Positions 19,898-24,624 of a DNA stretch of 64,000 nt are shown piece after piece (within the stretch, counting starts at the first letter, position 1; every line of letters begins with the position of its first letter). The notes under the pieces were generated by a model. That model made no database searches and was not told the origin of the DNA. It saw only the letters and a program-made list of their open reading frames with translations. The stretch lies in contig JAIEOW010000085.1 of the NCBI GenBank assembly GCA_019750095.1, positions 1-64,000 of the forward strand, read 5' to 3'. The position numbers and the translations under genes are program-made. This stretch comes from Phycisphaerales bacterium (GTDB lineage: Bacteria > Planctomycetota > Phycisphaerae > Phycisphaerales > UBA1924).

Positions 19898-19927
19898 GCC
19901 CCGTGCGAGAGCGCGGGGCGTTTTTTT
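19898..19927 (+). terminator. Intrinsic terminator between rpsJ and rplC
   Basis: GCCCCGTGC pairs with GCGCGGGGC (one G-U pair) around a GAGA tetraloop and is followed by G and seven T. It lies 15 nt after rpsJ and 117 nt before rplC, an unexpected place in an S10 operon. Confidence 0.88.
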
Positions 19928-23009: not shown

Positions 23010-23321
23010 ATGAGCCGCAGCAGCAAGAAAGGTCCGTACGTTGACGAGCGCCTGTACCGGAAGGTTGAGAAGCTCAACCAGATGGGCAAGCGCGAGCCAA
23101 TGAAGACGTGGCGTCGAGCGTGCACGATCGTGCCGGAGTTCATCGGGCACACGTTCAAGGTGCACAACGGCAAGGCGTTTCTGGACGTGTTCGTGACGGA
23201 GGACATGGTCGGGCACAAGCTCGGCGAGTTCAGCAACACGCGGACCTTCCGCGGTCACACGAACAAGAAGGAAGGTATCGACGGCGGCGATTCGGCACCG
23301 GCGGCACCTGCGAAGAAGTAA
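23010..23321 (+). CDS. rpsS: 30S ribosomal protein S19
   Basis: A 103-aa S19 ([35 protein letters not shown] split core, [19 protein letters not shown]). It binds the 30S head with S13 near the A-site finger. It carries a short Gly/Ala/Lys tail beyond the family core. The 62-nt spacer before it is made of GGCATC-type short repeats. Confidence 0.96.
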
Positions 23322-23373
23322 GCAAAGGCAACCCAGAACTCGCGACCGCCTGAGGGCGCGAGGAGGACGACCA

Positions 23374-23919
23374 GTGAGACTCAACGGACCCAAACTCAAG
23401 ACCATCGCCGAGGCCAAGGGCGTGAGCATCGAGCAGCTCGCCCAGGCCGTGGAGCGCACCGGGCTGACCGGTTCGCGAGCGATCTCGGCGGTCGGGAACT
23501 GGATGCGTGGGAGCGACCACCCGCGCTGCAAGCGTTCGGACGTGCTGGCCCTGGCCCAGGCCGTGGGCGTGCCCGTGACGGACATCGCGGTGTTCGAGTG
23601 CATCTATCGCCACCACCGCGGCTCGCCGCGGAAGGCGAAGCTGGTGATCGACCTCATCCGCGGAAAGAAGGTCGAGACGGCGCTGAACCTGCTGACGTTC
23701 ACGACCAAGAAGGCGGCGGTGGACGTGAAGAAGGCGCTGAGCTCGGCACTCGCGGACGCGCAGAGCGTTGAGGCGAACATCGAGTCGCTGGTCGTGACGC
23801 GGTCGACGGTGACCGACGGCCCGCGGATCAAGCGATTCCAGCCCAAGGACCGCGGCCGGGCTCACCCGATCATCAAGCGCATGGCGCACATCACCATCGG
23901 CCTCGAGGAGCGCAAGTAA
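23374..23919 (+). CDS. rplV: Ribosomal protein L22 fused to an N-terminal HTH domain
   Basis: A 181-aa protein, against about 110 for ordinary L22. Residues ~80-181 are L22: RGSPRKAKLVIDLIRGKKV, ALNLLTFTTKKAAVDVKKAL split core, VTDGPRIKRFQPKDRGRAHPI. Residues ~5-72 read like an XRE/Cro-type helix-turn-helix: LKTIAEAKGVSIEQLAQAV, AVGNWMRGSDHP, then SDVLALAQAVGVPVTDI. The start is GTG at 23374 with GGAGGA at 23361-23366. The stop codon touches the rpsC start, so it is translated within the cluster. The domain could bind nucleic acid, perhaps rRNA or its own mRNA; DNA regulation by a ribosomal protein is only a speculation. Confidence 0.9.
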   Translation: MRLNGPKLKTIAEAKGVSIEQLAQAVERTGLTGSRAISAVGNWMRGSDHPRCKRSDVLALAQAVGVPVTDIAVFECIYRHHRGSPRKAKLVIDLIRGKKVETALNLLTFTTKKAAVDVKKALSSALADAQSVEANIESLVVTRSTVTDGPRIKRFQPKDRGRAHPIIKRMAHITIGLEERK

Positions 23920-24624
23920 ATGGGACAGAAGACGCAACCCTTTGGCTTTCGCGTCGGGATCACCGAGGCCCACCGCTCGCGCTGGTACGCCCCCAAGGCG
24001 GTGTACGGCGAGCTGTTGATCGAGGACGAAAAGATCCGCCGCTTCCTGGACAAGCGCCTGAATCGTCAGCCCCCCCACGCGGCGGTGAGCGACATTCACA
24101 TCGAGCGCACCCGCGAAGAGCTGAAGGTCATCGTGAAGACGGCTCGTCCTGGTCTGGTCATCGGCCCGAAGGGCGCCGAGGTTGATCGGCTGACGGAAGA
24201 GCTGGTGCTGATGACGGGCCGCAAGGTCTCGATCTCGATCATCGAGATCAAGAACCCGGACCTTGATGCAAAGCTGGTGGCCGAGAGCGTGTGCGAGCAG
24301 CTTCGCAAGCGCGTGGCGTTCCGGCGGGCGATCAAGATGAAGGCCGACGCGGTGATGACGGCTGGCGCGCTGGGCGTGAAGATCCAGCTCGCGGGTCGGC
24401 TTGGTGGTGCGGAAATGAGCCGAACGCTGGACGTTCGTCTCGGCTCGCTGCCGTTGAGCACGCTGCAAGCGCATATTGACTATGGCGTGGCGGAAGCGGT
24501 CATGAGCTACGGCGTGATCGGCTGCCAGGTGTGGGTGTATCGCGGGATGTACAAGCAGGGCGAGACGGACGAGAGCGAATCGAAGGCCGCCGGCGGCCGA
24601 GCTCGTGCCCGTGGTCGTCGTTGA
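23920..24624 (+). CDS. rpsC: 30S ribosomal protein S3
   Basis: A 234-aa S3 (GQKTQPFGFRVGITE, the KH-domain block VIGPKGAEVDRLTEEL, and IDYGVAEAVMSYGVIGCQVWVYRG). It guards the mRNA entry channel. The ATG follows the rplV stop with no gap. The C terminus is short and Arg-rich (GGRARARGRR). Confidence 0.97.
   Translation: MGQKTQPFGFRVGITEAHRSRWYAPKAVYGELLIEDEKIRRFLDKRLNRQPPHAAVSDIHIERTREELKVIVKTARPGLVIGPKGAEVDRLTEELVLMTGRKVSISIIEIKNPDLDAKLVAESVCEQLRKRVAFRRAIKMKADAVMTAGALGVKIQLAGRLGGAEMSRTLDVRLGSLPLSTLQAHIDYGVAEAVMSYGVIGCQVWVYRGMYKQGETDESESKAAGGRARARGRR

Follow-up and report, generated by a model that had tools for sequence, protein, structure and literature searches.

Within the window, by which we mean the whole 64,000-nt stretch of Phycisphaerales DNA analysed here, rplV occupies positions 23374-23919 of the + strand as an open reading frame of 181 residues, flanked upstream by rpsS (S19; 23010..23321, +, assigned from the list of open reading frames and from relatives) and downstream by rpsC (S3; 23920..24624, +). 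This rpsS-rplV-rpsC arrangement is the usual order of the S10 cluster. The GTG start codon of rplV is preceded, 7 nt upstream, by a GAGGAGG ribosome-binding site (23360..23366, +), and its TAA stop codon directly adjoins the rpsC ATG, bearing out the normal cluster place, good ribosome-binding site and abutting stop described in the initial annotation. The gene is single-copy in the window's genome. Its product, uL22, is a universal protein that forms part of the wall of the exit tunnel and that, with certain others, is needed when 50S assembly takes its first step.

The reading frame encodes two parts. Residues 73-181 (23590..23919, +, stop codon included) form the uL22 core, with matches to Pfam Ribosomal_L22 (PF00237; residues 79-177, E 7e-30, 103.7 bits against a cut-off of 28, profile positions 4-103 of 104) and to NCBIfam TIGR01044 (rplV; 100.2 bits against a cut-off of 73.65, profile positions 3-101 of 103). 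Residues 1-72 (23374..23589, +) correspond to an XRE/Cro-type helix-turn-helix (HTH) domain, a type that normally belongs to phage-repressor DNA-binding proteins. The excess over ordinary L22, put at about 70 residues in the initial annotation, thus amounts to a 72-residue N-terminal domain; fused relatives almost always have 70-73 extra residues. Pfam HTH_31 matched residues 6-72 with 29.5 bits (curated cut-off 27) when the N-terminal 74 residues were scanned alone, and with 26.7 bits, just under the cut-off, in the whole protein. Among 23 diverse relatives, HTH_31 was matched by 16 (at E 0.1 or better), HTH_26 by 12 and HTH_3 by 11. Since the core is intact and the genome holds no second rplV, we infer that this uL22 is incorporated into the 50S subunit.

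Several observations bear on whether the extension is made as protein. A start at HTH residue 1, 70-73 residues ahead of the core, is conserved in nearly all fused relatives read, and no start inside the L22 core is conserved among them. Six loci (L019, L032 and L041, plus L103, L110 and L112 from named genomes) have no other in-frame ATG, GTG or TTG before the core, and a mis-called start was rejected. Unfused relatives mostly have 27-107 nt between rpsS and the core and fused ones mostly 200-340 nt, the HTH filling the space. In all ten pairs of relatives compared, dN in the HTH was lower than dS (for example 0.006 versus 0.226), and it mostly lay above dN in the core. On this codon evidence, the HTH domain is protein-coding and under purifying selection. 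The sole conserved start, the genomes without an alternative and the purifying selection make its translation as part of L22 very probable. A chance origin is excluded, since well over a hundred genomes carry the extension with the same start and junction and, nearly always, with a length of 70-73 residues.

We modelled the window's rplV protein with AlphaFold2, using 53 relatives as additional input. The full-length model reached a mean pLDDT of 92.2 and a pTM of 0.81, and the HTH domain modelled alone a pLDDT of 92.1. Helices span residues 5-15, 19-26, 33-44, 54-64 and 68-71, the last leading without any linker into residues 72-81, which form the first L22 strand. The turn that follows helix 2 and precedes helix 3 comprises six residues and is longer than usual, a canonical HTH turn having three to four. 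When the whole model was searched against the PDB with Foldseek, the top matches were uL22 proteins of solved ribosomes; the core of the window's protein is complete, with its hairpin. For the domain alone, Foldseek E-values were weak (best 0.02), with XRE proteins making up most of the best-ranked matches. VIA-align of the domain alone gave structural Z-scores, over about 65 residues, of 9.6 for CylR2, 9.5 for C.Csp231I, 9.2 for SinR and 9.0 for P22 c2, and the XRE-like domains of HEPD/HppE enzymes aligned nearly as well (Z 8.2-9.3). The N-terminus of rplV is hence predicted with confidence to be a complete five-helix domain of the XRE/Cro/C1 type; profile matches, structure prediction and conservation agree with the earlier reading of an HTH of lambda-repressor type to which a complete L22 is directly attached. 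A model lacking an HTH fold, named in the initial annotation as a refuting outcome, was thus not obtained.

The fusion is widespread and patchy. Among 61 close relatives, it is present in every member of the window's family (f1) with an rplV match and in a second family of the same order (f4); f2, f3, f5 and f6 are unfused. Of 298 genomes sampled from the class, 283 had an rplV match, and among the matches listed about 88 of these also matched over the HTH, the fused families being f1, f4, f13, f18, f20, f23, f24, f26 and f27. A profile of the fused protein run against a phylum sample of 392 genomes matched class members only, so that the survey of Planctomycetota proposed in the initial annotation returned the fusion from this one class. 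Twelve genomes outside the class were also checked directly: eleven matched over essentially the core only and the twelfth gave no match. A scan of named records with Sedimentisphaerales-type sequences as query, which does not name f1 itself, gave 80 loci, every one of which included the HTH, with titles reading Sedimentisphaerales, Phycisphaerae, Phycisphaerales, Planctomycetota and a few others. One of these records (L163) is titled Candidatus Kuenenia stuttgartiensis and carries a Phycisphaerae-type fused L22; the title probably reflects a mislabelled bin. In one f4 genome, rplV has a 1-nt frameshift inside the HTH (L070; G051:C1, near 2801600), which may be an error in sequencing or may mark the domain's ongoing loss. 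The HTH is repeatedly absent from sister families of fused ones and is therefore dispensable there.

How this distribution arose was addressed with ribosomal-protein trees, one without branch supports and one with SH-aLRT. In a tree of thirteen ribosomal proteins, the fused taxa fell into separate clades (a Sedimentisphaerales-like group, f1 and f4), with the unfused f3 as sister to f1. A single clade of all fused taxa was rejected for 12 ribosomal proteins (AU p 3e-72) and for the L22 core alone (p 0.005). These results would fit separate lineages having each joined an XRE domain to rplV, a history that also needs three changes as against one gain and about seven losses. However, an HTH profile built from Sedimentisphaerales only picked out the fused L22 proteins in f1 and f4 with E-values of 2e-9 to 1e-16 (and the frameshifted f4 copy in two pieces, at 5e-7 and 0.02), and all other proteins of 21 genomes stayed above E 0.1; start, length and junction are, moreover, identical across the fused lineages. 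Independent capture of different XRE domains is made very unlikely by this profile test, which, by singling out the fused proteins, points to one origin of the HTH domain. No clear paralogous source was found within the own genome. Because the L22 cores follow the species tree, either an ancestral fusion was lost several times or the 5′ end of the gene recombined. We moderately favour the ancestral fusion, followed by about seven losses, over a later transfer of the 5′ end from lineage to lineage, which is possible.

As for function, the sequence and model data suggest that the HTH is most likely a permanent domain of the ribosomal surface and not a repressor. A Cro/C1-type five-helix domain would have been fused to rplV at its 5′ end in a single event within Phycisphaerae, been made ever since as a permanent part of uL22, and been dropped where lineages could do without it. 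As helix 5 continues straight into the first uL22 strand without a linker, the domain would stay on the mature 50S subunit as a rigid knob, placed close to the tunnel exit on the solvent-facing side, where the globular part of uL22 lies. Its conserved loops, between helices 2 and 3 and between helices 3 and 4, may touch rRNA or a neighbouring protein, and the domain may help the 50S to assemble or factors to dock; its main role would be other than sequence-specific DNA binding. We lean towards this proposal as a whole, that is, a one-time fusion yielding an attached knob near the tunnel exit that contacts rRNA or protein and does not mainly bind DNA.

Strong conservation within the HTH is seen at N42, W43 and P50 and in the helix 3-4 loop, and A36, A39 and A61 are conserved as well. 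The net charge of the window's domain is a modest +4 (family means 3-5). Along the E. coli 23S coordinates, 23S rRNA length did not separate ten rRNAs of fused from ten of unfused genomes, and the lengths of L23, L24, L29 and S3 did not change with the fusion, comparisons to which contacts that leave no trace in length are invisible. These negatives, the modest charge and the absence of the HTH from sister families speak against the proposal. The initial annotation had offered a ribosomal add-on that binds rRNA; the add-on fits best, and its binding to rRNA found no echo in co-varying 23S length. Separately, large 23S rRNA insertions were seen in three genomes: about +312 nt near E. coli 541-560 (L233, G043), +289 nt near 1861-1880 (L224, G077) and +453 nt near 1161-1180 (L236, G130).

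Alternatively, the HTH could act at the tunnel exit as a platform whose partner, bound or gated, is not rRNA but a nascent-chain factor (deformylase, aminopeptidase, trigger factor or SRP). Indeed, peptide deformylase docks mainly on uL22, at a site that overlaps the one for methionine aminopeptidase (PMC3130931, PMC8712518), and HEPD/HppE enzymes illustrate that an XRE-like fold can serve as a module that does not bind DNA. The deformylases themselves, however, argue against such a platform: their C-terminal tails (28-39 residues) differ neither in length nor in character between genomes with and without the fusion, and the one insert that was found is confined to f1 and missing from the other fused families. 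We therefore consider a docking platform unlikely. The insert, of about ten residues, occurs in the f1 deformylases L252, L253, L257 and L272 and is absent in f4, in Sedimentisphaerales and in the unfused families read.

The second function raised in the initial annotation was autoregulation, in which unassembled HTH-L22 would bind S10 operon DNA (or mRNA) through its HTH and repress the operon. XRE repressors and controllers share this fold, and the E. coli S10 operon is autoregulated by a ribosomal protein, uL4, though through RNA binding (PMC10931766). Yet the exposed positions of helix 3, the recognition helix (34, 35, 37 and 41), vary with an entropy of 2.3-3.0 bits within the family, the helix 2-3 turn has six residues, and the HTH is fixed to L22 without a linker. 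In a weak test for a shared operator, no 8-mer was common upstream of rpsJ beyond the level of shuffles, and the rpsJ-rplC gap shared mainly the word GCAGAGGA, which resembles a ribosome-binding site. These points weaken the idea, and we hold autoregulation to be quite unlikely. An S10 attenuator was likewise not apparent among relatives, where an rpsJ-rplC hairpin is sporadic. The window itself has a strong terminator-like hairpin with a T-run in this gap (19898-19919, +), and a similar one is present in just part of the relatives, whether or not they carry the fusion. Judged decidedly unlikely is a broader version, in which the HTH binds nucleic acid other than rRNA and ribosomes or free L22 grip DNA or mRNA. 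If true, it would tie ribosomes to the nucleoid or couple ribosome supply to expression, and a core ribosomal protein would double as a DNA-binding protein by means of a dedicated domain. Lastly, some ribosomal proteins are made with prepeptides, and proteolytic cleavage that would release the HTH as a protein of its own and leave an ordinary L22 is compatible with all sequence results; it is highly improbable, given that secondary structure continues from helix 5 into strand 1 with neither a linker nor a conserved cleavage motif.

The permanent-domain reading thus concerns a real and old addition of a complete repressor-type domain to a core part of the ribosome in several large lineages of Phycisphaerae. 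Fixed in many species of one class and absent from close relatives, the domain constitutes a natural experiment on the gain and loss of ribosome domains and on the capabilities of an HTH carried by the ribosome.

Compared with ordinary bacterial uL22 (PF00237, TIGR01044), the Phycisphaerae protein shares the complete core with its hairpin, the operon position and the single copy, and differs by its folded 72-residue N-terminal domain. NCBIfam NF008917, a 311-position model of an L22/unknown-domain fusion, aligned to the window's rplV over the L22 core only (model positions 6-108; 67.7 bits against a cut-off of 526). Extra sequence on uL22 has been reported from Mycoplasma pneumoniae, where the extension is structured in part (PMC9534751), and from chloroplasts, where it is long (PMC5071890), which makes extension of a ribosomal protein a known kind of change; neither is described as an HTH. 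An HTH on L22 was not met in the literature searched, which misses most subscription journals, and an XRE domain as a uL22 extension is, within those sources, apparently new. To XRE/Cro/C1 proteins (CylR2, C.Csp231I, SinR, P22 c2; HTH_31, HTH_3, HTH_26) the domain is akin in its predicted five-helix fold (Z 9.0-9.6) and profile matches; unlike them, it is joined to a ribosomal protein, varies at the exposed residues of the recognition helix, has the six-residue turn and shows no dimerisation part. HEPD/HppE carry the XRE-like fold in non-regulators (Z 8.2-9.3), in their case metabolic enzymes. MBF1 of archaea and eukaryotes differs in being a separate protein, reported on the small subunit and in other lineages, with a specific N-terminal domain before its HTH that is absent in fused L22, where the HTH begins at residue 1-5. 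What the two have in common, by description, is a Cro-like HTH on the ribosome, as archaeal MBF1 is reported to bind ribosomes (PMC6301793).
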